DNA of 64,000 nt, from the NCBI RefSeq assembly GCF_009834915.1, contig NZ_WVHS01000005.1:310001-374000 (forward strand), given 5' to 3'. The position numbers and the translations under genes were made by a program. The DNA is from Hufsiella ginkgonis (GTDB taxonomy: Bacteria > Bacteroidota > Bacteroidia > Sphingobacteriales > Sphingobacteriaceae). Numbering within the stretch: position 1 is the stretch's first letter; each line of letters begins with the position of its first letter. Under the pieces are notes generated by a model that did not search any database, was not told where the DNA came from, and saw only the letters and a program-made list of their open reading frames with translations. This document shows positions 28,996 to 56,771 of the stretch, piece by piece.

Positions 28996-30273
28996 TTATG
29001 CGTGGGTGAGCTTTTCAGGTTTCCTCGACCGCATGAAAAATACCAATCCCGCAAAGGCGATGATCAGGATAATGGGCAGTGTAAGTGTAAAGTTCAGTAC
29101 TTCCGGGCCGGCCAGGGTATTTGCAGAAGCTAATGCATTGGCTTGTTCCGTACCTGGAGCGGCTGCCTGGTATTCTGCCAGTGAAGCACCCGCAGGCAGG
29201 TGTTTTAAGATCAATTCGTCATAACGGCTACCCATAAAAATGGTGTACAGCGACACGGCAAACATGCCGGCCCCACCCATCAGGTTGATGCCTAATGCAC
29301 CCGATTTAGGAATATTGGTTGCCACGAAGCCAAGCATAGTTGGCCAGAAGTAACATACGCCGATACCAAACACCAGGGCGCCGATATAGAGCATACTGCC
29401 TGTTGAATGCCCCAGCAGGTACAACCCGAGAGCGGCGAAAACCGCCGAAAAAAGCAGTACCCCCTGCGGCGCAAGCCGGTGAACTACCGGTCCGGCAAAT
29501 GCCCGCCCCACCACCATGATACCGGTAGTAAGCGTTAACAGTATTACTGCGTTCGAGATCACGTTCGAAAGCAGCAACCCGATCCATTGCCCGGTAAACA
29601 GCTCGGTAATGGCGGTAAGGAACATGCAAACAAACATAAAAATGAACAATGGCGAAACCACCGCTTTATACATATCGCCGGTTGAAACACCGGAAGCCAC
29701 ACGCTCCGTAACCGGGAACTCGAGTTTAGAGAACAGGTAACCGTAAATAAGGGTAGGGATCAGCATCAGGCCCACCTGCACTTGCCACATATCTCCATAG
29801 CCGATTTCGTTAAACAGCATCACCACGAGTGTACCGATCACGATACCCCCGGGGAACCATAGGTGGAAATAGTTAAGACGGGTGGTTTTATCATTTGGAT
29901 ATAGCGACGCGACCAGCGGGTTACAGGCCGCTTCCACCGTACCGTTGGCAATACCAACCAGCAAGGTAGAGAAGAAGAGGGTCCAGTAACCGGTGGCGAA
30001 GATGGTCAATGCAATGCCAAGTAAATGGAAAACGAACGCCATTACCAATAAGCGCTTCATCCCGATGATGTCGACGATGAAACCGCCGATAACCACGGCC
30101 AGGGGGAATCCCCAGAACGCCGTTGCGGTGATGGTGCTTAACTCTGAGGCATTTAGCTGGAACTCTGCCCCCAGCCGGCCCATTATACCGGCACGGATCC
30201 CGAAGGAAAGAGAAGTAACTAATAACGCCAGGCAACTCGCCCAGAAAAGCTTAGAAGTTTGAATGTTAGGCAT
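28996..30273 (-). CDS. MFS sugar transporter, FucP-like
   Basis: 425 residues, about 12 transmembrane segments, inner membrane. N-terminal half: S-F-G-I-R-A-G-I-M-G-R-L-G near 25, G-G-F-I-V-D-I-I-G-M-K-R-L near 63 (the MFS loop 2-3 motif region) and G-I-A-N-G-T-V-E-A-A-C-N-P-L near 106, which resembles the fucose:H+ symporter group. A long periplasmic loop near the C-terminus (about 345-385) is rich in Ala. It is the last gene of the large run, 78 bp after the second PVC dehydrogenase in map position but upstream of it in no sense: it lies before that gene on the minus strand, with its start at 30273. An AT-rich element shared with two other promoters sits at 30299-30320. A fucosidase operon follows, so fucose is one possible substrate. 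Confidence 0.8.
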   Translation of the reverse strand: MPNIQTSKLFWASCLALLVTSLSFGIRAGIMGRLGAEFQLNASELSTITATAFWGFPLAVVIGGFIVDIIGMKRLLVMAFVFHLLGIALTIFATGYWTLFFSTLLVGIANGTVEAACNPLVASLYPNDKTTRLNYFHLWFPGGIVIGTLVVMLFNEIGYGDMWQVQVGLMLIPTLIYGYLFSKLEFPVTERVASGVSTGDMYKAVVSPLFIFMFVCMFLTAITELFTGQWIGLLLSNVISNAVILLTLTTGIMVVGRAFAGPVVHRLAPQGVLLFSAVFAALGLYLLGHSTGSMLYIGALVFGIGVCYFWPTMLGFVATNIPKSGALGINLMGGAGMFAVSLYTIFMGSRYDELILKHLPAGASLAEYQAAAPGTEQANALASANTLAGPEVLNFTLTLPIILIIAFAGLVFFMRSRKPEKLTHA

Positions 30274-30298
30274 AAGATTGGTTGAAATAAGTTGGGAA

Positions 30299-30320
30299 CA
30301 AGATATTAATATTTACGTAA
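30299..30320. promoter_or_regulatory. AT-rich shared upstream element, copy 3
   Basis: Matches the element at 59352-59373 in 19 of 22 positions, with a palindromic ATATTAATAT core, 26 bp upstream of the MFS start codon. See also 56935-56960. Confidence 0.45.
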
Positions 30321-30350
30321 GTAGCAAAGTAACGTTATACGTAAAACCGC

Positions 30351-32570
30351 CTACTTCTTAATCGCGTCCAGCTCCGCCATCGTCCAGGGAGTTGTTCTGC
30401 TTGCGGTGGCGTCGCGCACCTTTTTTACATCGGCCGGTTTTACGGTAGGTGCTTTATTGCCCATGTCGTTGCGTACGTAGCTGAGTACGGAGGCAATATA
30501 TTCATCGTCGTTACCACCCAATGCCGGCATAATGCTGGGGTACGTTTTTCCGTTCACCGGGCCGGTAAGGCCGTGAAGCACAATGCGGAGCAGTTTCTCC
30601 GGGTCGCCGTTAACGTCTTTCGAACCGGCCAGCGGCGGGGCCGGCATGTCTTTTCCGCCAATGGCGATGCCCTTGCCGTCTTCGCCGTGGCAGCTCGCAC
30701 ACAGCGATTTAAAGATCACCGCGCCGTTCGCTACCAGTTTGCGGTCGGTCTCCGCCATCAGGCGTGCATTTCTTTCGGCGAGCTCTTTGGCCGCAATACC
30801 GTCGGTATATTTTTTCTGCGATTCTACCAGCAACTGGTTGGTTGGATTGGCGGCCAGCAGGTCTTTAATGATCTTCCGGGCTTTTTCCGACTTGCTGAAA
30901 CGCATGGTAAGTAATAGCTGGAAACGGACATCGGGACTTGGATCATCCTTCAGGGGCTCCAGCAGGCCGATCAGTCCTTCGTCGCCTTTGCGTACCGGCT
31001 CATCGCAGATCCATACCGCAGTTTTGCGCACCTGTGAATCGGCGTCTTTCAAACCGGCGGTGAGCGTTTCGCGGTCGAGCGCATTAAGACCGTTTAGTGT
31101 CCACAGCGCATGGATGCGGGCAAGATGGTTGGGGGAGGTCATGGCCATCGTTTTCAGTGCGGGAGCCACCGATTTGTCGGCGCGTACCACCATTAGTTTC
31201 TGTGCGGTTTCGCGCCACCAGGCATTGGCGTGGGTTAAATAGGGAACCAGCTGGGCGGTAGGAAGGCTCAGCATCCGCGGAACGGTTTTGTCGCGTTTCA
31301 TACCATCGTATACCACGCGGTAAATACGGCCGCGACCGATATTCTTGTCGAGGTTCCTGGCGGTGATCTGCGGACGCAGGTAACTTCCCACTTTGGTCCA
31401 GGCGCTTTCCTGGATAATGCCGCGGTACATATCCAGCAGGTACAGGCAACCATCAGGGCCGGTAGCGCTGTTCACCGGGCGGAAGTTCATGTCTGACGAG
31501 GCGATGAATTCTTCCTTGTTATACGCATTTACTAACGTGATCTTGCCATTGGTATTGATCACCTTCGCACGGCGGATGAGGCGGCCTACAGGTTCACAGA
31601 TAATGAGATCGCCTTTGAGATCTGCCGGGAGCGTGTTCCCGCGATAAACCGACTGGCCGGTACAGGCGGTAAAATGATTGAGCGTACTATCCGGACGAAG
31701 ACGGCCCTTGCCTCCCTGCACGTCGGGCGTAGAGATGATGGGCCAAACTGCCTGGAACTCCTGGTCGAACTGGTCCTTAAAATCCAGGCGGCCGTAACCG
31801 GGGTTCTGCTGGAAATTAAGCGCGGGCGTTTCCGCACCTGCGGCTGAGAAATACAGGCGGCCGTAATCGTCGTTTGCCAATCCCCATTGCCCTCCGGGAC
31901 CTTCATGCAGAAACTCCGATTTGATCATGCCATTTTCGTACGCGTAACGCATATTTTCCACTGTCACGTACATCTTGTTATCGAGGTTCCAAACCAGGCC
32001 GCTTTTCTGGTGCTCGAGGTTTCCCTTGCTGATCACGTCGTTGCGGTACACCATTTTTTTCTCATCGGCTACGCCATCGCCGTTGGTGTCGCGGTAACTG
32101 AATATGTGGTTCGAGTTGGTTTCGTTCACCAGCAGGCGATCGTCGAGTGCGAGGATCATGCGCGGCAGCACCAGGCTATCGATAAATACGATGGCTTTAT
32201 CCATTTTCCCATCGCCATTGGTGTCTTCCAGGCGCTTCACCGTGCAAATGGGGTTCATTTCGCCCGTCCCGTCTGCGTCCTGCATGTAGGTATTCATTTC
32301 TGCCACGAACATCCGGCCGTTGCCATCCCAAACCATGGCTACCGGTTCGTGGATCATGGGTTCTGCGGCCACCAACTGCAGGTGATAGCCTTTTTGGAGG
32401 TGTATGGTTTTCATACTTTCCTCCGGGGAAAGGTAGGCCGGAGACGGGTTAAGATCGACGATGATCTTGCCTGCCGCATCGCGCTTAAGCGCCGTTTGCG
32501 CTACTTTACAGGCATAAACCGCCAGGGATAGGCATAGGAGACCCATTACCCGTTTCATGTTCCTTTTCAT
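30351..32570 (-). CDS. PVC-type heme-binding dehydrogenase lipoprotein (second copy)
   Basis: 739 residues. Lipoprotein signal L-A-V-Y-A-C with the cysteine near 21. Residues about 50-420 form the beta-propeller of the putative membrane-bound dehydrogenase family (H-E-P-V-A-M-V-W-D near 76, E-H-Q-K-S-G-L-V-W-N, G-P-D-G-C-L-Y-L-L-D-M-Y-R-G near 371). About 440-600 is a HEAT-like helical repeat array, and about 625-739 a cytochrome c domain with heme motif C-A-S-C-H-G and a distal Met in Y-P-S-I-M-P. Such proteins are thought to oxidise sugars or alcohols in the periplasm and pass electrons to the attached heme, but substrates are largely unknown. It follows ThuA by 20 bp. Confidence 0.85.
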   Translation of the reverse strand: MKRNMKRVMGLLCLSLAVYACKVAQTALKRDAAGKIIVDLNPSPAYLSPEESMKTIHLQKGYHLQLVAAEPMIHEPVAMVWDGNGRMFVAEMNTYMQDADGTGEMNPICTVKRLEDTNGDGKMDKAIVFIDSLVLPRMILALDDRLLVNETNSNHIFSYRDTNGDGVADEKKMVYRNDVISKGNLEHQKSGLVWNLDNKMYVTVENMRYAYENGMIKSEFLHEGPGGQWGLANDDYGRLYFSAAGAETPALNFQQNPGYGRLDFKDQFDQEFQAVWPIISTPDVQGGKGRLRPDSTLNHFTACTGQSVYRGNTLPADLKGDLIICEPVGRLIRRAKVINTNGKITLVNAYNKEEFIASSDMNFRPVNSATGPDGCLYLLDMYRGIIQESAWTKVGSYLRPQITARNLDKNIGRGRIYRVVYDGMKRDKTVPRMLSLPTAQLVPYLTHANAWWRETAQKLMVVRADKSVAPALKTMAMTSPNHLARIHALWTLNGLNALDRETLTAGLKDADSQVRKTAVWICDEPVRKGDEGLIGLLEPLKDDPSPDVRFQLLLTMRFSKSEKARKIIKDLLAANPTNQLLVESQKKYTDGIAAKELAERNARLMAETDRKLVANGAVIFKSLCASCHGEDGKGIAIGGKDMPAPPLAGSKDVNGDPEKLLRIVLHGLTGPVNGKTYPSIMPALGGNDDEYIASVLSYVRNDMGNKAPTVKPADVKKVRDATASRTTPWTMAELDAIKK

Positions 32571-32590
32571 TATATGTGATTTAAATTAGT

Positions 32591-33349
32591 CTATTTCTTT
32601 TTTCCGAGGGCGTATTTAATTCCGCCAAGAAGGTGCTGCAGGTATAAGGGCTCGGCAAAGGATTCGTCGGTATGGCCAAGCTCGGTGTAAAAGGCACGAC
32701 CGCCATCGTATTCGTGGTACCAGGCCATGGGGTGGTTACCCATTTTGTCCTTACCGGCATCGTAGGTAGTTTCGTCGATGGCAAGCACCACGTGCAGGTC
32801 TTTGGCCATCCATTTGTAGTTGTACCATTCGTCTTTGCGCTTCCATTCTGCGGGAAGGTGTTTGGTAGAGATGTGCTTGCCGTCCACCACTTTAATGGTA
32901 GCCATCTGCTGCGCAGGATGCGAGGCGAAGTACCCGCCCACCAGGTTGCCGTACCACTGCCATTTGTATTCGCAGTCGGTAGCCGCGTGTACGCCCACAA
33001 AGTTGCCGCCGCTGCGGATGTAGTTTTCGAACGCAGCCTGTTGTTCGTCGTTCAGGATATCGCCGGTAGTGCTCAAAAAGATCACCGCTTTATATTGTTT
33101 CAGGTTGCCGGTATTGATGTTCTTCGCGTCGGTGGTGGTATCTACCTCAAACTTGTTCTCAGCGCCCAGCTTCCGGATCGCTATCACCCCGGGCTTAATG
33201 GAATTGTGGTGGAAGCCGGCTGTCTTACAGAAGACGAGCACTTTCGGGTTCTTCCTGGCAAACCCGGTACCGGCGGTAAAAACAACGATAACCGCAACGG
33301 CCAGCAGCCAATGCAATCGTTTGCACAAATTGGGTGTAAGAAGCTTCAT
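32591..33349 (-). CDS. ThuA-domain protein, exported
   Basis: 252 residues with a signal peptide (A-V-I-V-V-F-T-A-G-T-G-F-A, about 30). The ThuA (trehalose utilisation) fold, related to class I glutamine amidotransferases, shows K-V-L-V-F-C-K-T-A-G-F-H-H-N-S, Y-K-A-V-I-F-L-S-T-T-G-D, G-G-N-F-V-G-V-H-A-A-T-D and the C-terminal G-R-A-F-Y-T-E-L-G-H-T. The amidotransferase Cys position reads V-H-A-A, so no glutaminase activity is expected. ThuA proteins work with sugar 3-dehydrogenases on keto-disaccharides. It lies between a c-type cytochrome gene and a PVC dehydrogenase gene, which fits periplasmic ketosugar handling. Confidence 0.9.
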   Translation of the reverse strand: MKLLTPNLCKRLHWLLAVAVIVVFTAGTGFARKNPKVLVFCKTAGFHHNSIKPGVIAIRKLGAENKFEVDTTTDAKNINTGNLKQYKAVIFLSTTGDILNDEQQAAFENYIRSGGNFVGVHAATDCEYKWQWYGNLVGGYFASHPAQQMATIKVVDGKHISTKHLPAEWKRKDEWYNYKWMAKDLHVVLAIDETTYDAGKDKMGNHPMAWYHEYDGGRAFYTELGHTDESFAEPLYLQHLLGGIKYALGKKK

Positions 33350-33403
33350 GGTTTATTTAGGGGTTATGTTGGTTATGTTAAAGGAACGATTCCGTTACCG
33401 GAC

Positions 33404-33475
33404 GTTTGACGTTATACGTTTCTATCCCGCGGTTAATGCGGGCGCAGCCAGGCTACCATAGGTATAACGTCAAAC
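33404..33475 (-). repeat. Perfect 14-bp inverted repeat between cytochrome c and ThuA genes
   Basis: GTTTGACGTTATAC (33404-33417) and its exact inverse complement (33462-33475) flank a 44-bp spacer that itself contains CCCGC-GGTTAAT-GCGGG. It begins 10 nt after the cytochrome stop codon. No U-tract follows, so it is more likely an mRNA-processing or attenuating structure than a terminator. Confidence 0.7.
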
Positions 33476-33484
33476 AATCCGCGG

Positions 33485-33880
33485 CTACTTCAGCGACAAA
33501 ATATACTTCACCATCTTGGTAGCGTCGGCCTGCGTGATCTGTGGGTGAGCAGCCATAGGGATCTGGCCCCATACGCCGCTTCCGCCGGCAAGGATCTTTT
33601 TAGCAAGTATGGTGTAGTTGGCGGCGGTAGCAGGATATTTCTTTGCTACATCTTTATAAGCCGGTCCTACAAGTTTCACATCCACTTTATGGCACGCGAA
33701 GCAGTCTGATTTCATCATCAGGGCTTCACCTTCTTTAATATCTGCTGCGGTGGCTGCCTGGGTTGCAGGCTTCTTTACAGGTATTACTTTCTTTTTAGGA
33801 GTTTGCGCAAAGCTTCCGGCCACGGGAATAGTAATTAAGGCGATCATTACGGCGCGGAGGATCAGAATTCTCTTCATCAA
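33485..33880 (-). CDS. Small c-type cytochrome, exported
   Basis: 131 residues. Signal peptide ends near A-G-S-F-A-Q (about 26). A lysine/proline/alanine-rich linker follows, then a single class I cytochrome c domain with heme motif C-F-A-C-H-K near 61 and a methionine in I-P-M-A-A-H-P near 108 as probable sixth ligand. It should shuttle electrons in the periplasm. Placed between the two PVC dehydrogenases, it is their likely electron acceptor (inference). The 184-bp gap upstream makes it the possible first gene of a sub-operon with ThuA and the second dehydrogenase. The first two codons are both ATG. Confidence 0.92.
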   Translation of the reverse strand: MMKRILILRAVMIALITIPVAGSFAQTPKKKVIPVKKPATQAATAADIKEGEALMMKSDCFACHKVDVKLVGPAYKDVAKKYPATAANYTILAKKILAGGSGVWGQIPMAAHPQITQADATKMVKYILSLK

Positions 33881-33890
33881 TGTTAGTTTT

Positions 33891-33908
33891 ATACTTTTTG
33901 AAAAGTAT
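33891..33908. promoter_or_regulatory. Palindrome upstream of the cytochrome c gene
   Basis: ATACTTTTTGAAAAGTAT is an 8+8 perfect palindrome with a TG centre, 11 bp before the cytochrome start. It may be an operator or part of a promoter; on the minus strand it contains TACTTTTC, one base from TAnnTTTG. The surrounding 33881-34064 gap is AT-rich and has no other feature. Confidence 0.4.
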
Positions 33909-34064: not shown

Positions 34065-36428
34065 TTATTGATTAGTAAGCTCTTTCATGGTGAACGCCTT
34101 TTCCCGGCCTTTCAGCCTGGTGCGGGCGTCGGCTACATCTTTGGCGGTTATGCGGCTGGCATTGTTCTGCCACGATCGGCGGATATAGCTCAGCAGCTGT
34201 GCGATGTCCTGGTCCGAAAACTCTTTATTGTTGCCAATCCCGGGCATATCCGCCGTGATCTCGGGCGCCTGGTACAGGTGGCTGTTTACCATAACAGGGC
34301 CGGTTAACCCGAACAATACGATGGAGAGCAGCTTATCTTTATCGCCATTCACCCATTCTGATTTGTTCAGCGGCGGAGCCAGCGACTTAATTCCGTTCGC
34401 ATCGGCCCCATGACAGGTCTGGCAGGTCGAGCTAAAGATCGCCGCCCCGCGGGGGAACTCCTTTTGCAGCAATACCGGGTCGTGGTTACGCCTGGCGTTT
34501 TCGATGCTGCGCATCAGGCGGCCCAGGTGTGCATAAAAGATACCCGTGGTATCGGGCACCACCCTGGTCATCTCCCGGCGAAAGGCTGCTTCCCTGTCCT
34601 GTAAATTACTGATCACGGCATCGGCCACGAACCCGTTTGCGGGATAGCTTTTCACGAGGGTCTGCAGCAGTTTATCTGCTGCAACTTGATTAAACGGCCT
34701 GATCGCGTTGCATGCAAAGGCAATATAGGGTGCGGTATTTACCTCCTTTTTAAGTTCCAGCTTTTGCAGCGCGGCGAGATACAGGGGCGCCGATATTTTA
34801 GTAACTACCGAAGGGATCACGCTCAATGCCTGCATTTGTACCGGCCATTCCGGCGAATTTAAGGCCGTCAGCACTTCCGCCGTACGGAGCGCGTGCAGCC
34901 CTTCCAGTGTCCACAACGCGTGCATTACCCTGAACTGGTTGTCGTTGCTTTTAAGCGCCTCGCGAAGTGCAGGTATAGCCAGGGGCGATTTGCCATCTAC
35001 CAGCATTTGCTGCGCGCGGTCGCGGACCCAGCCGTTGGCATCGCCCAGGAGCGCCACCAATTGCTTCGGATCTGCCGGCATCTGCCGCATGACTGCATTT
35101 TTTCCTTCGGGAACCACTTTATAGATACGTCCGCACGACAGCGGAACGGACAAATTTCGCTTTGCGATCTCTTTTTTAATATACGGGCTCAGGTAAGTTT
35201 TATGCTGGATGATACCGCGGTACATATCCACCACGTATAATGCGCCGTCGGGAGCGTCGTACAGGCTAACGGGGCGAAACCGTTCGTCCTTACTGGCTAT
35301 GAATTCCCGGCCATTATACGCTTGTGTTCCCTTAATGGTATAACCGTCGTTGGTTAGTATATTCCGCTTGATGAGGTTGGCAGACGGCTCGGCTACAAAG
35401 GTGTTCCATTCATAGGCGGGGCCGAATAAGCCGCCGCGGTAAACAAGCGGTCCGCAGGCAGCCGTAAAGTTCACCAGGCGAAGGCTGTCGTCGAGCACGC
35501 CGGGCAGGTAGCCACGGTTTACGCCGGTAGTTGGGCGCGCCGGGTACACCCGGTTATCGCGTACGACGTTTTCATCGAAGCCCTGCAGGTCGGTAAAGTT
35601 CTTGTTGCCCGAGCCCAGCCCGGGTGAGAAGTAGTCGCCGCGCAAATTCGTCGAGTTATCGTTCGAATAGAGCCGCCCGTAATTATCCTGCGAAATACCC
35701 CATTGGCCGCGGAAGTGCGTACGCTCCATTACCCAGCGATCGCCGTATTTCCGGTACCGCTTGGTGGATTTAGCGTTATAGATCCAGTTATCGAGCGCGC
35801 GGTACAAGCCGTTCGGCTGATGCTCTACGTTACCTTCCTCGGTATAGAGCGGATCTACCAGCACGCGTTTACCGGCTTTATCGCCGTTAAGCGGGTAATA
35901 CCATAAATAAGGCGGCTCCGCCACCAGCACGCCTTTCCCTATGAGACAGATCGCCCTTGGCAAACGCAGCGAATCGATCACCACTTTACGCTTGTCGGCT
36001 ACCCCGTCCTTATCGGCATCTTCGAGGATCACCACTTTGCCGCTCGGCTGATCTTCGCCGGTGCCGAGGGTATCGGGCATGTAACCCGTCATTTCGATCA
36101 CCCACATGCGGCTGCTGGCATCGAACGTCATGGCTACCGGGGTGCTCACAATGGGTTCCGACGCCACCAGCTTCACTTCGAAGCCTGGTTCTATTTTAAT
36201 TTTAGCCATACTTTCCGCGGGGGTAAGTACGGCGGCGCTGCCGACATCCACCGTATCGGCATATTTAACCGGTTTGGCAGCCGCTGCGGCCTGCGCTACC
36301 GGAACAACAGCCGGCGTTGCGGGCGCCGCGACCGTGGCGGCAGGTTTCACTGTGTGACATTGGTGCAGCGTAAAAATGGTAAGGCCCGTAGCTGCATACA
36401 CCAGGCTCTTTTTGGATAACAATTTCAT
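34065..36428 (-). CDS. PVC-type heme-binding dehydrogenase lipoprotein (first copy)
   Basis: 787 residues. The signal region ends T-L-H-Q-C-H, a possible lipobox with Cys near 24, followed by an Ala/Pro/Val-rich linker (about 28-58). The same architecture as the second copy: propeller (about 75-430; S-T-P-V-A-M-T-F-D, E-H-Q-P-N-G-L-Y-R, A-P-D-G-A-L-Y-V-V-D-M-Y-R-G), HEAT-like helices (about 455-620), and a C-terminal cytochrome c domain with C-Q-T-C-H-G near 670 and a Met in A-D-M-P-G-I. Only moderately similar to the second copy, so an old duplication with possibly different substrates. Its ATG overlaps the stop of the MFS gene by four bases (ATGA, 36425-36428), indicating translational coupling. 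Confidence 0.85.
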   Translation of the reverse strand: MKLLSKKSLVYAATGLTIFTLHQCHTVKPAATVAAPATPAVVPVAQAAAAAKPVKYADTVDVGSAAVLTPAESMAKIKIEPGFEVKLVASEPIVSTPVAMTFDASSRMWVIEMTGYMPDTLGTGEDQPSGKVVILEDADKDGVADKRKVVIDSLRLPRAICLIGKGVLVAEPPYLWYYPLNGDKAGKRVLVDPLYTEEGNVEHQPNGLYRALDNWIYNAKSTKRYRKYGDRWVMERTHFRGQWGISQDNYGRLYSNDNSTNLRGDYFSPGLGSGNKNFTDLQGFDENVVRDNRVYPARPTTGVNRGYLPGVLDDSLRLVNFTAACGPLVYRGGLFGPAYEWNTFVAEPSANLIKRNILTNDGYTIKGTQAYNGREFIASKDERFRPVSLYDAPDGALYVVDMYRGIIQHKTYLSPYIKKEIAKRNLSVPLSCGRIYKVVPEGKNAVMRQMPADPKQLVALLGDANGWVRDRAQQMLVDGKSPLAIPALREALKSNDNQFRVMHALWTLEGLHALRTAEVLTALNSPEWPVQMQALSVIPSVVTKISAPLYLAALQKLELKKEVNTAPYIAFACNAIRPFNQVAADKLLQTLVKSYPANGFVADAVISNLQDREAAFRREMTRVVPDTTGIFYAHLGRLMRSIENARRNHDPVLLQKEFPRGAAIFSSTCQTCHGADANGIKSLAPPLNKSEWVNGDKDKLLSIVLFGLTGPVMVNSHLYQAPEITADMPGIGNNKEFSDQDIAQLLSYIRRSWQNNASRITAKDVADARTRLKGREKAFTMKELTNQ

Positions 36429-46239: not shown

Positions 46240-46258
46240 ATCATTTAATTTAAATGGG

Positions 46259-47925: not shown

Positions 47926-49587
47926 TCAGTTTACGGGCACCAGCTCAACACTATACCACCAGATCTGGGTATTGGTTCCTGCGAGCCCGTCAATACGAAG
48001 TACGTGGCTGCTGGTCTGGTTAAGCGTTACCTTGCCTATATATCTTCTAAACTGGAAATCGCCATACTGAGTCGTCACACCCGGGGGCGTTGGGCCGACC
48101 GTGGATCCGCCAATGGCGTCGTTGCTGTCGGTAAGGTTGAGGGTTACTACGTCGCCCAGTTGCTGGCCATCCCATTTAAACGAGGCATAGGAAGCGTTTG
48201 CGGGGTTGTTGCGCCGGTAACCGCTGTAATTTACGATCACGTTATACGTCCCTTTAAACACCAGCGGTGTGGTTACCTCGTAATAATAGCCTTGTGTAGC
48301 GCCGGTAAGATAAACGGCATAATCACCCGCCCATTCGGCCCTTGCAGGCACGGACGGGGTACCTACCGGGTATCCCCATTTGAGCCACCAAATGATGGAT
48401 TGCCCGGCAGGATCTGCGCCCAGCTTAGGGAACTCGGTAATGAAATTACTGAGCAGGCCGGTTTTAAGCTTAAGGGAACGATCTTCCAGCGATCCGGCGA
48501 ACGGCTGTATTACGGTTACCGGCCGTACTTTATACAGGCTCATCACCGAAGTGATAGAATGCAGCACGCCATTCTGCGTAATGTTATTGCTGTTAGCGAG
48601 GTCGATGCCCACCTGTACGTCGGCGCCGGTTACTTCATCCGCGTGTTTATTGATCGAGATCCCCTTGCTGCTGCCAAAGATCAGGTAATTGCCGGCACTG
48701 AAGCTTTCCTTATAGGTGTCGCTAAACTCAGAGACAAAATACTTCTGGTTCAGCGCGTGGAAACGCACGAAGAGGTTAAGCGAATCAGCAAGACTGGTGT
48801 AATTTTTTGTGGTTTTATAGGTGTTCGAATATTTTTTTGCGAGATCGTCGAACGAATTGATCCCTGCTTTTTTCAGCACGTCATTTGTTTCCAGGAAAAT
48901 GGTGCGCCATTTTACCACCGGTTTGCCGTAACGTACGTCGGCAGGATCGGTATCGATCTTTTTGAGAATATCGTCGGCGTTGCCGGTTTTCTCGAAAGCT
49001 TCTAGCATGATCGAATACCTCGCCTGCGATTTCAGCCAGCCGTACAGGGTTACCGCGGGTGGGTCGAGCACGTCATTTACTTCGTGGATGAAGCCGTTGC
49101 TGTTCAGTACGTCTAACGTGCCCAGCGTTACCGCGTCGTTCAACTTGGTTTGGGCGATGCCCGCAGAAATATCGAACTTAATAAAGTTGCCGTTAATGGT
49201 TGAAGTAGGCAGCGTGCCCATTACAAAATTGGCAGAACCGTACTGCTCGTTATAGATATGGTACTGGAGCAGGTTTTTCAGGGTATCGGGTTTCAGCTCA
49301 GACACATCGGCTACGTTTTTACGCTTCAGGTATTTCTTGAACGCTTCGTCGTTGGGAGCGAATAAGGTCATCGAGCCATAAATGCTGAGCGGTTCCGAGA
49401 GCCTGGTAATCTCCAGCGCTTTCACCAGGATCGAGTATTTCGGGTTTTCTTTCAGGTAATTGAGGATCGTTTTACTGTTCTTTTCGAGCGTTTGACCCGT
49501 ATCCAGCCTGTATTCTTCGCATGAAATAAACAGTATTACTGCCATGCTAAGCAAAAAGGCTTTAATTATGTTAACTGGCTTCATCAT
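47926..49587 (-). CDS. Fasciclin (FAS1) domain lipoprotein with C-terminal beta-sandwich (second FAS1 gene)
   Basis: 553 residues. Lipobox V-I-L-F-I-S-C-E with Cys near 23. Two FAS1 domains: about 40-180 (I-L-N-Y-L-K-E-N-P-K-Y-S, M-T-L-F-A-P-N-D-E-A-F, F-I-H-E-V-N-D-V-L) and about 185-350 (L-Y-G-W-L-K-S-Q-A-R-Y-S, V-L-H-S-I-T-S-V-M). The C-terminal part (about 400-553) is a Tyr/Trp-rich beta-sandwich (Y-N-V-I-V-N-Y-S-G-Y, I-W-W-Y-S-V-E-L) like carbohydrate-binding modules. It follows SusD1 by 16 bp and probably belongs to the same transcript. Surface attachment or glycan binding is the likely role. Confidence 0.85.
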   Translation of the reverse strand: MMKPVNIIKAFLLSMAVILFISCEEYRLDTGQTLEKNSKTILNYLKENPKYSILVKALEITRLSEPLSIYGSMTLFAPNDEAFKKYLKRKNVADVSELKPDTLKNLLQYHIYNEQYGSANFVMGTLPTSTINGNFIKFDISAGIAQTKLNDAVTLGTLDVLNSNGFIHEVNDVLDPPAVTLYGWLKSQARYSIMLEAFEKTGNADDILKKIDTDPADVRYGKPVVKWRTIFLETNDVLKKAGINSFDDLAKKYSNTYKTTKNYTSLADSLNLFVRFHALNQKYFVSEFSDTYKESFSAGNYLIFGSSKGISINKHADEVTGADVQVGIDLANSNNITQNGVLHSITSVMSLYKVRPVTVIQPFAGSLEDRSLKLKTGLLSNFITEFPKLGADPAGQSIIWWLKWGYPVGTPSVPARAEWAGDYAVYLTGATQGYYYEVTTPLVFKGTYNVIVNYSGYRRNNPANASYASFKWDGQQLGDVVTLNLTDSNDAIGGSTVGPTPPGVTTQYGDFQFRRYIGKVTLNQTSSHVLRIDGLAGTNTQIWWYSVELVPVN

Positions 49588-49603: not shown

Positions 49604-51172
49604 TTATTTATAATATGGGTTTTGAACAAGCGCCGTATTGTTGGTAAGCTCATCGGTATTAAATGGCAGGTACCAGCTTTCGGGGTTGCTTATTCTCGGG
49701 CTGATCTTTAACTGGTCGGTACCGCTCAGCGAGTTCAGGATGGTTTGCACCAGGAAATCTTTACGGGCGAACTTATCGCGGGAAGCAAAACGCACCAGGT
49801 CGAACCAGCGCTTACCTTCGCCTATGAACTCGCGTCCGCGTTCATCTAACAGCAACTGGTCCATCTCTTCCGTAGAAGTAGTGGAGGCTTCGGGAAAGAG
49901 GCTTTTCAGCGGGTAAACGCGCTGCCGCAGGTCATTGATCAGCTCGCAGCCTTCTTTAAGTTTTGCTGCGTCATTGGGATAGCGGTGAGCCAGGGCTTCC
50001 GCTTCCATCAGGTAAACTTCGGCGAGGCGGTAATAGATCCAGCGCGAATTGTTATTCTGGTATTTCTGCAGCAGCCGGGTAGTGGAATTAAACCCGGTAT
50101 TGGCATTTACCGTGCCGGCGCGGACATCCACCAGCGGTGTGATCTGGAACAACAGGTCGGCTCTCGGGGAAACCACCCATAACTGGTTTGATCCTTTGAA
50201 CCATCCTTCCATGCTGCTCGACTGGTTATTCAGCGTATTGTTGGTGAACTGTTCGAAAATAGACTCCGGCGTGTTCCCGGTATTGAATATGCTGGTGTAC
50301 AGGCTCAGTGGTAAAATAAAATAACGGCCCGATTCTCTTACCGCTTTGCAGTTCTCGATCACTTTATCATACATCGCGTTGGCTGAAGCGGAATTGTCTG
50401 CCAGGGCTGCCTGCCACAGGTACACATCGGCGAGGGTGGTCATGGCGGTATATTTAGTGGCTCTCACCCTTGGGTATAAAGCGCTTTCGTACCACTCGGG
50501 CAACGTCTCTTTGGCCTTTACCAGGTCTTTTACGATCTGGTCGAGGATCTCTTTACCGGCCGCTTTAGGAACATTGAACTCCTGGTCGTCCTTCTCGTAA
50601 GGGTCGAGCACCAGGGGAACATCCCTGAAAGCCCTCGTTAACCAGAAATAGCAGAACGCCCGCGCAAAATATGCCTCTCCAACCAGCTGGTCCGATTCTG
50701 CCTGGGTGAAGTTAGGATCCTTTGCCACCACGTCGGGAACATGTTTAATGGCCAGGTTAGCCTGGTTAATGATCTTATAAAAAGCGCCGTACCGGGTGGT
50801 GGCGTCGCCGGGAGCTACGAGGTAACTATCTACGTTCTCCTTGGTAAGCTGCGCCGCAGGCATCTTGGTGGGGTTGGTAGCCAGGATCTCGCCCCGTACC
50901 TCGCCCCAGTAAATGTAGGCTTCCTGCGGGGTCAGGAAGGTGTTCGACAGGTTATTGGCATTGGTAGCGCCTATTGCCCAGTTAATATTGGTGCAGCTTA
51001 AATTGGCGTAGATTCCCGCAATGGCGCCTACGGCCTGGCTTTCGGTCCGCCAGAAGTCGCCGGAGATGATCACACCCTGGGGCTCGGCATCTACCAGCTT
51101 ATCGCAGGAGGTGGTCCCCAGGCAAAAGACCAGCAACGCGGCTGAAAATATCTGTAAGTTTCTTGTTTTCAT
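49604..51172 (-). CDS. SusD/RagB family outer-membrane lipoprotein (first pair)
   Basis: 522 residues. Lipobox F-C-L-G-T-T-S-C-D with Cys near 23. SusD marks: P-Q-G-V-I-I-S-G-D-F-W near 33, G-E-A-Y-F-A-R-A-F-C-Y-F-W-L near 165, and C-terminal L-L-D-E-R-G-R-E-F-I-G-E-G-K-R-W-F-D-L-V-R, a textbook family signature, plus S-W-Y-L-P-F. Partner of the SusC gene 110 bp upstream; that gap holds a hairpin (51207-51246) that could set the SusC:SusD ratio. Confidence 0.95.
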   Translation of the reverse strand: MKTRNLQIFSAALLVFCLGTTSCDKLVDAEPQGVIISGDFWRTESQAVGAIAGIYANLSCTNINWAIGATNANNLSNTFLTPQEAYIYWGEVRGEILATNPTKMPAAQLTKENVDSYLVAPGDATTRYGAFYKIINQANLAIKHVPDVVAKDPNFTQAESDQLVGEAYFARAFCYFWLTRAFRDVPLVLDPYEKDDQEFNVPKAAGKEILDQIVKDLVKAKETLPEWYESALYPRVRATKYTAMTTLADVYLWQAALADNSASANAMYDKVIENCKAVRESGRYFILPLSLYTSIFNTGNTPESIFEQFTNNTLNNQSSSMEGWFKGSNQLWVVSPRADLLFQITPLVDVRAGTVNANTGFNSTTRLLQKYQNNNSRWIYYRLAEVYLMEAEALAHRYPNDAAKLKEGCELINDLRQRVYPLKSLFPEASTTSTEEMDQLLLDERGREFIGEGKRWFDLVRFASRDKFARKDFLVQTILNSLSGTDQLKISPRISNPESWYLPFNTDELTNNTALVQNPYYK

Positions 51173-51246: not shown

Positions 51247-51282
51247 GGGGTTCATATAATCGGTTGAGTTTCAAAATGCCTC

Positions 51283-54200
51283 TTAAAAAGCTATGCGCAT
51301 CCCCAGGTTGTAAGTGATCGGGTTAGGTGTATAGGCATTGTCGACACCGAATACAAATGGATCGTTACGGTTATTTATGCTCGGATCCATTCCCGAGTAA
51401 TGCGTAAGTGTGAAAACATTGCTGATGGTAAAGGAAAAATCAGCCTGTTTTACCCGCAGCTTCTGTAACTGGTTGGCCGGCATTTTATACGACAGGATCA
51501 GCTGGTTACACTTCAGGAAGGAGGCATCTTCTATATAGCGGTCGCTGCCTACAAAATTATGTCCGCCGCCATACAATGCTCTCGGCATATCGGTTACATC
51601 TCCTTGTTTTCTCCAGCGGCTCAGTACGGCGGTGCTTTGGTTGTAATTGTCGTACATGCTGGTGGTGGTCATGCGGGCATAGTTTTGCAGGTCAAATCCC
51701 TGCTGGAAGTTGAACACGCCAAAAATCTCCCAACGCCTGTTGTAATTAAGACGCAGCATAAACCCGCCAAAAAACTTAGGGGTGGCGTTCCCGATGGCGG
51801 TTACGTCCTGTCGGTTGATCACACCATCGTGGTTAAGGTCCGCGTAGCGCGCATCTCCGCCGGTAAAGGCTTCGCCGGTGGAGGTTAACCAGCGCACGGG
51901 GATCTTCTGCCCGTTAAAATCGGTAATAAAGTTTCCGCTGGCGTCTTTGGCGAAGGCGTCTTCATCCCTGGAGTAAACGCCTTCATATTTTAAGCCGTAA
52001 AAGGTGCCGAGCGGGTTACCTACGCTTACCAGCGACATGAAGCTCCTGTTGTCGAAAACGTTATTCCTGATAACCGGCAGGTTATTAGGCAGCGAGAGTA
52101 TCTTGGTCTGCGTAGTCGAGATGTTGAAGGAAGTGGTCATCCGCCATTTTTTGGTAGATACCGGTATCCCGCTTACTTCGCCCTCCCATATGTTAGCGCC
52201 CAGATCGCCGTAATTGGCGGCGGAGGTTTGGAAACCGGTAGTGGTAGGCAGGTTCCGGGTGAGGATCATGTCCTTGGTTTTGCTTTTGCTGAAGTCCGTT
52301 ACGAAGCTTAAGCGCCCTTTAAACAGGGAGAGGTTCATCCCTACGTTGGTAGAGATCGCCTTTTCCCAACGCAGATCAGACAGCTCCATATTAAGCGGGC
52401 TCACGCCTTGGATATCAGCGAAAGGAGAGGCGGCGGTGAAAGCCAGGTCGGTATACCTTACCACGTTGGTGCTTGGCGCGCGGCCGGTGATACCCCAGCT
52501 GAAACGAAACTTGAGATCGTCGAGCCATTTGTATTTTCCCTTAATAAACGGCTCGGAGGAGGGTCTCCAGAAAGCAGAAACCGCCGGGAAGGTACCGAAG
52601 CGGTGATTACTTCCGAATATAGAATTGCCCTGCCGGGTAAGCACCCCCTGCACGGAATAGCGGTCGTCGAAAATATAGGCCAGCTGCCCGGTAAGCACCA
52701 GGTCGCGGGATAAGATCACCGACGACCTCATCGACGTGTTCACATCGGTAGCATATGGCGACGTTAAGAACTCCGAAGGGGTATTAGATCCATCGAAACT
52801 TAATCCTTTGGTATTTTCATTGGTATACCTGGTGAAGACACCTCCCTGCAGGCTTTGTTTATTTCCCAGGCCCTGTACCGTATAGATAAAGTCGTTTTTA
52901 ACGAAGAGTTTCGAGTAATTCTGGGGAACGAAGTTAGAGGCGTTCTCAGAGCCGTTGGCCAGCAGGCGAAAGTTGTTCACCCGGTAAAATTCTACGCCCG
53001 AAGCGCTGAGCGGTAAAAACCTGTCTACCCTGCTGCCTTCGTAGGCATTGTTGATGTTACTGTTGAACTGGAAACCCTTGAACGGGCTAAACCGGACATT
53101 CACGGTAGCGTCCAAACGGTTCGACCGGGTGGTATTGAGGCTGTTGTTGATAACCGCCACCGGGTTTCGCACGCCGTTCTGGTAAGTACCATTAGCCGGG
53201 TTAAAGTAGGTGGAGAGGTTGTTGCCGAACTCGTCCTGTGTAAAAATCGGGAGCACCGGCGCTTTGTTGAGCGCAATGATGCCTAAGTTATTATCGTAGC
53301 TGGCTTTCCTCTGCTGGTCTGAATAAGCAAAGTCACTCGCGAACTTCAGCTTATCCGATATTTTGTAGTCGAAATTGAAGCGACCATTCATCTTTTTTAA
53401 TTCGGAACCGATAATCGGCCCTTTGTCGTCGAGAAAGCCGACGCTTATCACATACTTAGCGGCTTCACCACCGCCCGAGATCTGTGCGGAATAATCCTGT
53501 TTAAACCCGTTTTCATTGATCTGGTCGAGCCAGGAGGTATTGTTATTGTAATTCTCGTAATCGATCGCGCCCTTCTCGAGGAAGAGGTATCGTACTTCGT
53601 TACTTGTAAGATCAATGCCGGTAGTGCCGTAACGGTTCTGGTAAGCCTCCAGCATCATGGTTTTATACTGGTCGCCATTTAACATCGGCAACGGAGTTTG
53701 AGGAAGCTTGACCATGAGGTTGGTGCTAACGGTGATCGTGGGCTTCAGGTTCGATCCGCGTTTGGTACGAATGGCGATGACCCCGTTGGCACCATCGGAA
53801 CCATACAACGCAGTTGCGGCGGCATCTTTCAGGATATCGATCGTGGCTATATCGGCTACAGAAATGCTTAGCAGTGCGCTGAGGCCTTCGGTTGTATTGA
53901 TGTCGGCGCCCTCAGGGGTAGTAAACGGAATATCGTCTACTACGATGAGGGGCTTAGAACCGAGGCCAAGCGAAGCGGCCCCCCGGATCTGGATGGACGA
54001 GCCCGAGCCGGGATCGCCGGAGTTCATAGAGATCAGCAGCCCCGAAACTTTTCCTTCCAGCACCTGGTCTACCGAGGTCGCCGGGATATCTTCCAGGTCC
54101 TTCATATCGATGGAAGAGATCGCTGCGGTTTGATCACGCTTATCGATATCCAGGAAGCCTCCTGAGTTACCCAGTTTTTTCTGGCGGGTAGTGATAGCGA

Positions 54201-54537
54201 TATCAGAGAGGGTAGTGGCGTCATCCGCCATGGTCACGTTAATAACGGCGGCACCCTTAATGGCCCTGGAGAGTGTACGGAGACCGATCTGGCTAAAACG
54301 AAGAGAATCTGCCTGGTCTGCCACTTTGATCTGGTACTCGCCGGCCTCGTTCGTCACCACCCCGTTCACCAGCCGACCGTCCTTGTTCCTCTCCGTCACG
54401 GTCACCCCCGGTAAGGGTAAACCTGTCGCTTTTTCGGTCACTTTCCCTCTTACCACCGAAGAAACGGACTGGGCGTACGATTGCACTGATGTACACATCA
54501 ATACGATCATTAATAAAAAATAAGCTCTTTTCAGCAT
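51283..54537 (-). CDS. SusC/RagA TonB-linked outer-membrane importer (first pair)
   Basis: 1084 residues. Signal peptide ends near S-Y-A-Q (about 23). A carboxypeptidase-regulatory-like domain (about 28-105; V-R-G-K-V-T-E-K-A-T-G-L-P-L-P-G-V-T-V) precedes the plug (about 140-250; I-P-A-T-S-V-D-Q-V-L-E-G-K-V-S-G-L, I-R-G-A-A-S-L, P-L-I-V-V-D-D-I-P) and a barrel ending Y-N-L-G-M-R-I-A-F. Sequence divergence from the second SusC is large in both plug and barrel, so the two systems likely take up different ligands. It lies 5 bp after the four-domain FAS1 gene. Confidence 0.95.
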   Translation of the reverse strand: MLKRAYFLLMIVLMCTSVQSYAQSVSSVVRGKVTEKATGLPLPGVTVTERNKDGRLVNGVVTNEAGEYQIKVADQADSLRFSQIGLRTLSRAIKGAAVINVTMADDATTLSDIAITTRQKKLGNSGGFLDIDKRDQTAAISSIDMKDLEDIPATSVDQVLEGKVSGLLISMNSGDPGSGSSIQIRGAASLGLGSKPLIVVDDIPFTTPEGADINTTEGLSALLSISVADIATIDILKDAAATALYGSDGANGVIAIRTKRGSNLKPTITVSTNLMVKLPQTPLPMLNGDQYKTMMLEAYQNRYGTTGIDLTSNEVRYLFLEKGAIDYENYNNNTSWLDQINENGFKQDYSAQISGGGEAAKYVISVGFLDDKGPIIGSELKKMNGRFNFDYKISDKLKFASDFAYSDQQRKASYDNNLGIIALNKAPVLPIFTQDEFGNNLSTYFNPANGTYQNGVRNPVAVINNSLNTTRSNRLDATVNVRFSPFKGFQFNSNINNAYEGSRVDRFLPLSASGVEFYRVNNFRLLANGSENASNFVPQNYSKLFVKNDFIYTVQGLGNKQSLQGGVFTRYTNENTKGLSFDGSNTPSEFLTSPYATDVNTSMRSSVILSRDLVLTGQLAYIFDDRYSVQGVLTRQGNSIFGSNHRFGTFPAVSAFWRPSSEPFIKGKYKWLDDLKFRFSWGITGRAPSTNVVRYTDLAFTAASPFADIQGVSPLNMELSDLRWEKAISTNVGMNLSLFKGRLSFVTDFSKSKTKDMILTRNLPTTTGFQTSAANYGDLGANIWEGEVSGIPVSTKKWRMTTSFNISTTQTKILSLPNNLPVIRNNVFDNRSFMSLVSVGNPLGTFYGLKYEGVYSRDEDAFAKDASGNFITDFNGQKIPVRWLTSTGEAFTGGDARYADLNHDGVINRQDVTAIGNATPKFFGGFMLRLNYNRRWEIFGVFNFQQGFDLQNYARMTTTSMYDNYNQSTAVLSRWRKQGDVTDMPRALYGGGHNFVGSDRYIEDASFLKCNQLILSYKMPANQLQKLRVKQADFSFTISNVFTLTHYSGMDPSINNRNDPFVFGVDNAYTPNPITYNLGMRIAF

Positions 54538-54542
54538 TGTTA

Positions 54543-56771
54543 TTAGAATTGTGAGGTAAAGGCATTATTTATAACATGGATCACCCCGTCTTTAGCGAAC
54601 TTATTCTGGGGGTATAATGCCGGCTGTGTTTTGTCTACGGTAGCCACCTCGCCGGCCCTGCTGGTCACCTGTAACGTGGTGCCGTTGTAGCTCACGGTAA
54701 GGGGATAATAGGTAAGCGGCGTAGCGGTAAGCACTTTCCTGGAAGGGAAGGTACCGGTGGTTTTTCCGTCGGTAAAGATCTGTGTATCGGTGGCGAAAAA
54801 AGAGGATACGTAATTATACAACTGAAGCCTGATGGCGTCGGTCAGCGTAGTATTTGGTGTAACAGCTCCTGTTTTTGGCAGCTTACCGGCATTTTGCGCG
54901 GCTGTGATGGCTTCATTCGAGGGTACGAACAGGGTAAATTTCCGGTTCTGGGTCGAAGCGGTGATGGGAGCCAGCGGAAGTGTCGTCGAGGCCGTATTCG
55001 CGAAATCGGCCACGTTGATGCCGGAGGCGACCATGAGCTCTTTAAATTTCCGGTATTGCGGATTGGTCTGCAGGGCTGCGTTCGGGTCGGAGGTTGCGCC
55101 GTTGATCTGCTCGTACAACGTACCAGGGTAGTAGATGATCTTATTGATCCCCTGGAAAAATCCGTTCGACTGGCTAACGTTGGGGTTAACCACCGAAACC
55201 AGGCTATCGCGTTCCGTACCGCTGATCTTGCCGTTCACGATACTGATAAAGGTGCCATTCTGCGTAGGATAAAACTTTTCTACAGGGCTATTCATATCGC
55301 TGATGCTTAACGATGTATTCATAATGATATGGTTACCTAGCAAAGTGGTAAGCTCCGAGATCGCCACCGGCGTTTCAAGCCCGTTGGGTTTCCGGAAAAA
55401 GCCCGGGGCTCCCGCGATCGGCTTCTCTATCCAATAAATTCCCCGTGCCGCAAATGCCGCATTGGTTGGGGCAAGAAGGGTGAACTTCGCATCGCCGCTG
55501 CTCAGCAGGCCCAGCAGGTTGGTCCGGATCAACGCCTCAGCCAAATACCAGTATTGGGGCGAAAAGAATGATGGTCCTGGCACTGTGGTGAACGATTTCG
55601 GCTCAATTACTTTGTTAAGCGTATAAAGAATGCCGTTACTGGTCATCTTAATGCCTTTGATATCGCTCCGCGCGAGTGTGATCTTATCGCCCAGTTCGCT
55701 TACCGACTGCCCCTTATCGATTTTTGAAGGCCAATCCATGGTACTTGCAAGGTGGCCCTTGTAAAGTAACTGCAGCGTATGAGTGGGTATTGAGTCTTCT
55801 ATACCGTAAAAATTCGGCATCAGCCTGGTTTCGTAGTAATTTTTAAATGCCGTTTTTGAAGGAATGAACCCTGTTAACGATAATGATTTGGTACCCGATA
55901 ACGGGTTCTCGTTGTCGAGATTGGCATCTGTGGTGTAGGTACGGTTGAACAGCGAGTCCACGAGCCCGTCGCCATTTACATCGCCATTATTGCCCTGGGC
56001 CCTTGTACCTGCCTGGTTGTAGGTATAGCTCAAAAAGCGGCGTTTCATGATCCGGTTATAGTCCTCGTATTCCGCGTTATTTTCGAGCTCCTGTGCGATG
56101 TTATTCACCAATTCGAGCACGCGGTCTATCACATGTATCACGCCATTTCCCGAGGCTATGTCTTTCTGAACGACCGAACTGCTCATTACGTTCATTTGCG
56201 TCTGGGCGTTCACTGCAGAGCCCGTGCCGTACACGTCTGTATAATCCTGCGATGTAACCCCATAGTAACTGAAAAACCTGGGGGTGTAAACCTGGATCAT
56301 TTTACTGGGATAATAAACTCCTTTTTTTGCCGCCGCATCATAGTAGGACGCTACCGCGCGTGTTTCATACTTATAGATGTCTACATTGATGGTAGGATCT
56401 GAAGAAGGCTTGATGAAATTCCCCTGGAACAGCATCCATTTAAGGATATGGTATTTCACCATCTGCGTAAGCTCCTTTACCGGGATGTCGTCAATCTTCT
56501 TATATTTCGCATGTGCGGTGAAATACTTGGTAAAAGCATCGTTGCTGGGCGCCATCACCGTAAAAAGCCCTGACGAATTTAATTCGTCTTTCAAACCGGG
56601 CACTTTGTCTATCGCAGACACAAACGTCGACAGGGTCGGTTCACTGGCCAATTGATCGTAGATTTCACCAGCCTGCCCCTCAGGGGCGTCATAAAGTTTT
56701 CCGTACTGTTTCTTGCAACTACTGCTTCCGATTACACAAAGCAGGGTCAATAGAAGTATTCGTATCCTCAT
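54543..56771 (-). CDS. Large fasciclin (FAS1) repeat lipoprotein, first gene of the SusCD run
   Basis: 742 residues. Lipobox V-I-G-S-S-S-C-K with Cys near 19. About four FAS1-like units: 37-220 (L-F-T-V-M-A-P-S-N-D-A-F, V-I-H-V-I-D-R-V-L), 225-395 (degenerate; I-L-Y-T-L-N-K-V-I), 400-560 (F-T-L-L-A-P-T-N-A-A-F), 570-742 (F-T-L-F-V-P-S-N-E-A-I, V-I-H-V-I-N-N-A-F). The second unit contains a loop G-D-V-N-G-D-G-L-V-D near 265 that looks like a calcium-binding (dockerin/EF-hand-type) loop. It precedes SusC by 5 bp. A surface adhesin or ligand-presenting protein is likely; biochemical role unproven. Confidence 0.88.
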   Translation of the reverse strand: MRIRILLLTLLCVIGSSSCKKQYGKLYDAPEGQAGEIYDQLASEPTLSTFVSAIDKVPGLKDELNSSGLFTVMAPSNDAFTKYFTAHAKYKKIDDIPVKELTQMVKYHILKWMLFQGNFIKPSSDPTINVDIYKYETRAVASYYDAAAKKGVYYPSKMIQVYTPRFFSYYGVTSQDYTDVYGTGSAVNAQTQMNVMSSSVVQKDIASGNGVIHVIDRVLELVNNIAQELENNAEYEDYNRIMKRRFLSYTYNQAGTRAQGNNGDVNGDGLVDSLFNRTYTTDANLDNENPLSGTKSLSLTGFIPSKTAFKNYYETRLMPNFYGIEDSIPTHTLQLLYKGHLASTMDWPSKIDKGQSVSELGDKITLARSDIKGIKMTSNGILYTLNKVIEPKSFTTVPGPSFFSPQYWYLAEALIRTNLLGLLSSGDAKFTLLAPTNAAFAARGIYWIEKPIAGAPGFFRKPNGLETPVAISELTTLLGNHIIMNTSLSISDMNSPVEKFYPTQNGTFISIVNGKISGTERDSLVSVVNPNVSQSNGFFQGINKIIYYPGTLYEQINGATSDPNAALQTNPQYRKFKELMVASGINVADFANTASTTLPLAPITASTQNRKFTLFVPSNEAITAAQNAGKLPKTGAVTPNTTLTDAIRLQLYNYVSSFFATDTQIFTDGKTTGTFPSRKVLTATPLTYYPLTVSYNGTTLQVTSRAGEVATVDKTQPALYPQNKFAKDGVIHVINNAFTSQF

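Follow-up and report, generated by a model that had tools for sequence, protein, structure and literature searches.

A 16-gene run of Hufsiella ginkgonis as a probable composite of a conserved FAS1-SusCD uptake cassette and a putative periplasmic oxidation module

The 64,000-nucleotide stretch of the Hufsiella ginkgonis genome analysed here (contig NZ_WVHS01000005.1, positions 310,001 to 374,000; hereafter the window) carries 16 co-directional genes on its minus strand at 28996-56771, and in them two gene sets, each conserved separately, stand together on the chromosome of this soil-type Bacteroidota. Transcribed first are FAS1-1, SusC1, SusD1, FAS2, FAS3, SusC2, SusD2 and a 498-aa lipoprotein, followed by a TIM-barrel protein, a Gfo/Idh/MocA oxidoreductase, the carrier MFS2, heme protein 2 (PVC2), a cytochrome c, ThuA, heme protein 1 (PVC1) and MFS1 (Table 1). 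The run probably combines two modules, conserved independently of each other, within a larger array for glycan degradation, and would work by the mechanism proposed below. Module A (41421-56771) is a seven-gene cassette for outer-membrane uptake, here in divergent form, and module B (28996-39862) a putative periplasmic oxidation set.

An earlier note on this DNA had described 16 same-strand genes with mostly short gaps and a clear terminator, and this description holds. Eleven of the 15 intergenic gaps are <110 bp, the remaining four being 110, 135, 137 and 184 bp, and the terminator stem lies at 28953-28925. Its family labels (SusCD, FAS1, PVC-type heme, ThuA and MFS) were confirmed by matches to the TIGR04056, Fasciclin, TIGR02604, ThuA and MFS profiles, and one Gfo/Idh/MocA protein without a signal peptide had gone unmentioned in it. 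Lipobox cysteines are visible, and CxxCH motifs are present in both heme proteins and the small cytochrome.

The cassette is defined here as FAS1-SusC-SusD-FAS1-FAS1-SusC-SusD on one strand with small gaps. Besides that of the window 31 copies were found, one of them a second in the same genome (G000:C20:577000-596900, locus L154), which is canonical and has a further SusC-SusD pair directly upstream. No close relative of FAS1-1 was present in 150 genomes of the order. A looser phylum-wide search returned FAS1 relatives in nine other genomes together with the second copy here; all 11 matches adjoin a SusC, and the 20-50 kb fetched around them displayed the seven-gene order again, except that the third FAS1 gene is missing from two short forms. 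Full-length relatives were recovered with a profile of FAS1-1 (A2), which identified 44 copies in 35 of the 197 genomes of one family and was found in 9 of 340 genomes, from three families, in a phylum sample. Twenty loci were fetched from the first family, picked by the FAS1 gene alone, and each contains the six other cassette genes in the same order and on the same strand (20/20). Gaps are short throughout the 31 copies (178 of 184 <110 bp, median 18.5 bp). The seven-gene cassette is a new, strictly conserved arrangement of known kinds of parts, no description of which was found in the open-access literature searched.

The SusC proteins of the cassette were placed in a tree comprising 32 from position 1 and 32 from position 2 (window included) with 30 other SusC. 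The two positions form separate clades with support of 0.995 and 0.997, joined in a common clade at 0.93, and the distances among SusC1 and SusC2 proteins agree closely (r 0.98; 0.90 without the window and the short forms; 0 of 2000 permutations). Separate clades with agreeing distances would be expected if an old duplication had been followed by joint inheritance, and the two SusCD pairs of module A are taken to have arisen by such a duplication and to have been inherited together since.

The window cassette matches the seven-gene definition, with gaps of 5, 110, 16, 137, -11 and 34 bp, and its SusC1 and SusC2 fall within their position-specific clades (0.995 and 0.997). In both pairs the SusC exceeds the TIGR04056 cut-off of 368.25 bits and a SusD (PF07980/PF14322) is adjacent, as for SusCD importers. 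The three FAS1 lipoproteins are probably located at the cell surface, where they would bind glycan or hold the two importers together. The C-terminal part of FAS2 has a weak DUF5108 match (PF17133) in the relative L158, which at 24.4 bits is below the cut-off of that family, and may have a carbohydrate-binding role. A search for relatives of the 498-aa lipoprotein covered 150 genomes of the order and 246 of family f2 (about 400 in all) and found none. The position after SusD is often occupied by a surface glycan-binding protein, and from its place in the run the lipoprotein is possibly one as well.

The centre of module B is its pair of heme lipoproteins, each with DUF7133 and HEAT domains and, at the C-terminal end, a cytochrome c. 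PVC1 and PVC2 score 186.4 bits each against TIGR02604 (cut-off 122.2), pass the PF23500 cut-off, and carry CxxCH at residues 624 and 669. The PVC1 model built from an alignment, with a predicted local distance difference test score (pLDDT) of 88, has its best match in 3a9g, a pyrroloquinoline quinone (PQQ) sugar dehydrogenase (Z 23.6, 3.0 A over 275 residues); a single-sequence model was discarded at pLDDT 36. Neither PVC1 nor PVC2 matches Pfam GSDH (PF07995) or TrAA12 (PF22807) at E 0.001, and no functional assignment for the PVC heme family was found in the literature searched.

The TIM-barrel protein had previously been labelled an exported epimerase, and is more likely a relative of 3-keto-glycoside beta-eliminases. 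Its sequence relationship to AtOGE (8bvk) spans residues 34-257 with an E value of 4.7e-10, and H153, H155, D189, H215 and E254 were tentatively assigned, by motif and spacing, as counterparts of H132, H134, D163, H189 and E233, which are the metal ligands and catalytic His of AtOGE. From this homology it is probably a 3-keto-glycoside beta-eliminase or hydratase. PDB entries 8tcd, 8tcs and 8tct, which we take to stem from work on 3-keto glycan breakdown published in Nature in 2024, were not used as evidence for this on the strength of that origin. The Gfo/Idh/MocA protein is probably an NAD(P)-dependent reductase of the keto sugar. A separate hydratase, either a second TIM protein or a DUF1080 protein, is absent from the 16 genes.

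PVC1 has relatives of 60-78% identity in Pedobacter, Parapedobacter and Mucilaginibacter, and less similar ones are present in Flavobacteriia, in Cytophagia-type genera and in Verrucomicrobia. Judged by these relatives, the genome belongs to the same family as Pedobacter and Parapedobacter and not, as had been supposed, to the Chitinophagaceae. PVC2 has full-length relatives of 52-63% identity in 12 other genomes. Within six genes of the PVC1 relatives ThuA is found at 27 of 79 loci, Gfo at 18, TIM at 14 and DUF1080 at 7, counts whose independence is overstated as these loci include related species. Other neighbours in the same set are MFS (35) and cytochrome c (14), as well as GH95, GH99 and GH92 (GH, glycoside hydrolase). 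Beside a PVC2 relative the next gene encodes a 3keto-disac_hyd protein, and relatives of Gfo and MFS2 are divergent. The whole genome, by comparison, holds only 10 ThuA matches. In this genome and others, ThuA and DUF7133 are found together within one open frame (1100-1240 aa), a link between the two functions. Whole-module relatives in Flavobacterium have the order cytC-TBDR-ThuA-PVC1-Gfo-TIM-MFS, in which the TonB-dependent receptor (TBDR) is not of SusC type.

In marine Flavobacteriia (Tamlana, Mariniflexile and Wenyingzhuangia) PVC1 relatives lie near MFS-Gfo-TIM sets, often with ThuA (loci L062, L063, L066, L074, L081, L083, L102 and L103). The same loci often adjoin recurring genes for proteins of ~560, 577, 177, 491, 421 and 530 aa, the last an aldehyde dehydrogenase in L074. 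This set looks like a shared sugar-oxidation pathway.

Among the loci sampled, the two modules are joined in the window only. The earlier note had named a lack of conservation of the linkage in related genomes as an outcome that would refute its reading, and for a conserved unit this outcome was observed: of 20 cassette copies read with ~20 kb of flank downstream, 0 have relatives of PVC1, PVC2, ThuA, TIM or Gfo. A remotely similar GSDH/TrAA12-cytochrome c gene lies near one of 11 other copies (G245). Elsewhere PVC1 and PVC2 relatives occur without FAS1, and the SusCD and FAS1 genes of the window are absent around PVC2 relatives. As far as sampled, the combination of cassette and oxidation module is private to the window genome. 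The idea of import followed by oxidation has fared better as a general theme. Five Pedobacter loci have a co-directional SusC-SusD-x-GH99-x-GH99-ThuA-PVC1 order and Cellulophaga baltica has SusC-SusD-PVC1, also co-directional, in each case with SusCDs unrelated to those of the window. Outer-membrane import beside heme-linked oxidation therefore recurs, and the idea is partly supported, whereas the particular linkage in the window is unconserved.

In the mechanism proposed for module B, the heme lipoproteins would oxidise a sugar at one of its hydroxyls, with C3 of a sugar in glycosidic linkage the most likely position, and electrons would pass from them to the small cytochrome and on to the respiratory chain. 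The exported TIM-barrel protein would then cleave or hydrate the 3-keto-glycoside by beta-elimination, and ThuA would also act on the keto sugar. Products would be imported by the MFS carriers and reduced by the cytosolic Gfo/Idh/MocA enzyme. AtOGE is a proven 3-keto-glycoside eliminase in an oxidation-elimination-hydration-reduction pathway (PMC10628242, PMC7676230). Gene sets of this kind are known to work by that route, and oxidation-elimination of glycosides is the most likely, still hypothetical, chemistry of module B; oxidation specifically at C3 is about as likely as not. Both modules may here serve one shared substrate.

What the cassette imports elsewhere is suggested by its neighbours. 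GH28, GH88 or L-rhamnose isomerase relatives lie near 13 of 20 cassettes compared with 1 of 103 control loci (Fisher p 8e-12), a p value which overstates independence because the 20 cassettes include related species, and for which the controls came from other genomes and were chosen for PVC genes. One copy is adjoined by a whole L-rhamnose set (kinase, rhamnose isomerase, mutarotase, bifunctional aldolase/dehydrogenase and RhaT), and another is accompanied by GH28, GH88, a YXIM-type GDSL esterase and GH2. The simplest reading of these neighbours is that the canonical cassette takes up rhamnogalacturonan-type pectin fragments. The association is not strict, with seven of the 20 other copies also lacking pectin and rhamnose genes.

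In addition to these limits of sampling, several points weigh against the composite and its mechanism. The best relatives of the window cassette share just 25-37% identity with it, and the window lacks relatives of GH28, GH88 and L-rhamnose isomerase; the substrate of this copy may therefore differ from that of the canonical cassette or have changed. The enzyme activities proposed for module B are predictions from homology and fold. A search of PDB sequences with a profile of the PVC1 propeller gave only calmodulin-like chance matches and no PQQ dehydrogenase, and a search of the genome for pqqC was uninformative as no control matched. The window also has no gene for DUF1080, the 3-keto-disaccharide hydrolase/hydratase.

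Two alternative explanations concern the oxidation set. The best fold matches of PVC1 are aldose and glucose dehydrogenases, and an SGL lactonase-type gene lies in the same array at 15109-16002. Both would suit a set that acts on free aldoses at C1 to give lactones, like aldose sugar dehydrogenases, and is unrelated to 3-keto-glycosides. This is somewhat unlikely given the repeated AP_endonuc_2, Gfo, ThuA and 3keto-disac_hyd neighbours and the relationship of the TIM protein to AtOGE. The PVC heme proteins could instead be non-catalytic scaffolds for electron transfer or calcium binding, with oxidation carried out by another enzyme. EF-hand-like DTNGDG loops, similar to those of calmodulin, are conserved in most rows of the alignment, and the cytochrome c domain could serve electron transfer only. 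However, the propeller fold of PVC1 is that of sugar dehydrogenases and the run contains no other periplasmic oxidase gene, making a scaffold role improbable.

Other alternatives concern the run as a whole or the cassette. The view of the earlier note, that one co-transcribed hydrolase-free unit with two SusCDs serves to take up a small sugar, glycoside or sugar acid and to oxidise it in the periplasm, draws on the 16 genes of one strand with their terminator and on co-directional SusCD-PVC1 runs that recur with other SusCDs. It is quite unlikely to be correct as it stands. The linkage of cassette and oxidation set is seen only in the window, and internal promoters would fit into the gaps that precede ThuA (135 bp) and cytC (184 bp). 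The absence of glycoside hydrolases holds inside the chosen coordinates, and is apparent only because the run was cut there; as a special hydrolase-free polysaccharide utilisation locus (PUL) the run does not stand, because it has glycoside hydrolases on either flank and, in Pedobacter, such genes separate SusCD from PVC1. Highly improbable is a cassette that serves adhesion or the envelope and not uptake. FAS1 domains are known as adhesion domains and a FAS1 gene of a Bacteroidota symbiont was interpreted in this way (PMC10199937), but two SusCD pairs are always present and pectin and rhamnose catabolic genes are associated with the cassette. A bolder form of the composite reading is unlikely as well, namely that the cassette is a single two-pore machine, an obligate SusCD couple held by FAS1 lipoproteins, which here feeds respiratory 3-keto-glycoside cleavage through a new class of cytochrome c-fused propeller dehydrogenases.

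Table 1. Features of the 16-gene run, its flanks and related frames elsewhere (window positions unless a genome and contig are given)
Feature	Coordinates	Strand	Evidence
FAS1-1, cassette gene 1, 742-aa lipoprotein, several FAS1 domains	54543..56771	-	PF02469, 3 stretches; profile A2 740 bits
SusC1, TonB-linked outer-membrane importer, position 1	51283..54537	-	TIGR04056 644.7 bits; clade with 31 other position-1 SusC, support 0.995
SusD1 lipoprotein	49604..51172	-	PF07980, PF14322
FAS2, FAS1 domain and C-terminal domain	47926..49587	-	PF02469; alignment A3
FAS3, FAS1 domain and C-terminal domain	46259..47788	-	PF02469; alignment A4
SusC2, importer, position 2	43129..46269	-	TIGR04056 622.4 bits; clade with 31 other position-2 SusC, support 0.997
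SusD2 lipoprotein	41421..43094	-	PF14322, PF07980
498-aa orphan lipoprotein, after SusD2	39907..41403	-	no Pfam or NCBIfam match
TIM-barrel protein (AP_endonuc_2), exported	39032..39862	-	PF01261; PDB 8bvk (AtOGE) E 4.7e-10, 8tct E 8.1e-22
Gfo/Idh/MocA oxidoreductase, no signal peptide	37819..39000	-	PF01408 67 bits; 71% identical relative beside PVC2 relative in L127
MFS2, sugar or sugar-acid carrier	36425..37735	-	PF07690; TIGR00893 247 bits, below its cut-off
PVC2, lipoprotein heme dehydrogenase candidate (DUF7133 propeller, HEAT, cytochrome c)	34065..36428	-	PF23500, PF13646 (below its cut-off), cytochrome c domain, TIGR02604
Small exported cytochrome c	33485..33880	-	PF00034; CxxCH at residue 60
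ThuA-like protein, exported	32591..33349	-	PF06283 261.5 bits
PVC1, lipoprotein heme dehydrogenase candidate (six-bladed propeller, HEAT, cytochrome c)	30351..32570	-	PF23500 334 bits
MFS1 carrier, last before terminator	28996..30273	-	PF07690; adjoins PVC1 in Pedobacter, 74-79% identity
Intrinsic terminator	28925..28953	-	12-pair (12-bp) stem, then T run TCTTTTTTTA
Upstream neighbours: GH92, then alginate-lyase/beta-helix protein	57020..61453	-	PF07971, PF05426, PF13229
Downstream neighbours: GH29, two GH99-like, SASA-esterase, GH95, GH43, Oxidoreduct_C, SGL	15109..28770	-	Pfam matches
ThuA-DUF7133 shared frames	G007:C1:441418-443253 (ORF 1158 aa), G000:C19:310131-312017, G000:C19:838302-840248		both domains matched

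The run is the middle part of a ~54-kb same-strand array, extending from 15109 to about window-equivalent 69560. The upstream boundary first drawn for it is arbitrary, as the same strand resumes after 248 bp with GH92, alginate-lyase/beta-helix, CarboxypepD-reg, GDSL, kelch and ROK genes, and beyond the terminator the strand goes on with the GH29 to SGL genes of Table 1. The predicted start of the CarboxypepD-reg protein (61505-63898) is without an obvious signal peptide, so that either the true start or a 5' frameshift is in question. Beyond the SGL end of the array are a divergent LacI gene and then an FGGY kinase, a xylose isomerase and a symporter. This region (9129-15096) encodes a xylose symporter, xylose isomerase, an FGGY kinase closest to xylulokinase and the divergent LacI regulator. 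Catabolism of L-rhamnose or fucose beside the window was rejected on the identity of these flanking genes, xylose isomerase and a kinase closest to xylulokinase.

A Bacteroidota-type promoter pattern has a single match at 3691 of the window and none inside the run, and a generic sigma-70 scan of the window gave matches below chance. The two longest cassette gaps (47789-47925 and 51173-51282) contain related sequences of ~80-100 bp, with a local score of 84 compared with a maximum of 40 in 300 shuffles. Similar stretches occur at five further sites in the genome, and thus the cassette-gap sequences look like a dispersed intergenic repeat. Directly upstream of ThuA lies a perfect 14-bp inverted repeat, GTTTGACGTTATAC/GTATAACGTCAAAC, at 33404-33417 and 33462-33475 with 44 nt between, which has no further match in the window at <=3 mismatches. 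It is possibly an operator of a ThuA-PVC1-MFS1 sub-operon.

The cassette represents a conserved uptake unit with two importers and a domain, FAS1, not usually counted as PUL machinery. PULs, probably those for rhamnogalacturonan-type pectin, gain in it a new marker for annotation, and the role of FAS1 lipoproteins on the Bacteroidota surface becomes open to direct test. Pedobacter, marine Flavobacteriia and Verrucomicrobia commonly carry the heme-propeller/ThuA/TIM set, which is now placed beside characterised oxidation-elimination chemistry; the module is widespread and its function as set out here is hypothetical.

Compared with known SusCD PULs and utilisomes, the cassette has the same SusC/RagA importers (TIGR04056), SusD lids and surface lipoproteins, with glycoside hydrolases and esterases nearby. 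It differs in having two SusCD pairs in fixed order with three FAS1 lipoproteins, and in a pair of co-inherited SusC clades from one duplication. No FAS1 component was found in the PULs described in the literature searched. Module B resembles the known oxidation-elimination systems, which are the GlycDH/AtOGE operon of A. tumefaciens, LgdA/B1/B2/C for levoglucosan in B. smithii and the PUE puerarin operon, in placing a TIM-barrel eliminase relative and a Gfo-type oxidoreductase beside a sugar dehydrogenase (PMC10628242, PMC7676230). Where those systems have a flavoprotein or an NAD enzyme, the candidate dehydrogenase of module B is a cytochrome c-fused propeller lipoprotein; module B also differs in its exported TIM protein and its ThuA, and the run has no second TIM protein or DUF1080. 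The six-bladed propeller of PVC1 is shared with PQQ-dependent aldose sugar dehydrogenases (3a9g, 2g8s and 3das; Z 20.7-23.6), from which PVC1 differs in lacking a sequence-profile match and in its added HEAT and cytochrome c domains. A further likeness is to the PVC-type heme-binding CxxCH proteins (TIGR02604, DUF7133), in that both heme genes of the window exceed the TIGR02604 and PF23500 cut-offs.

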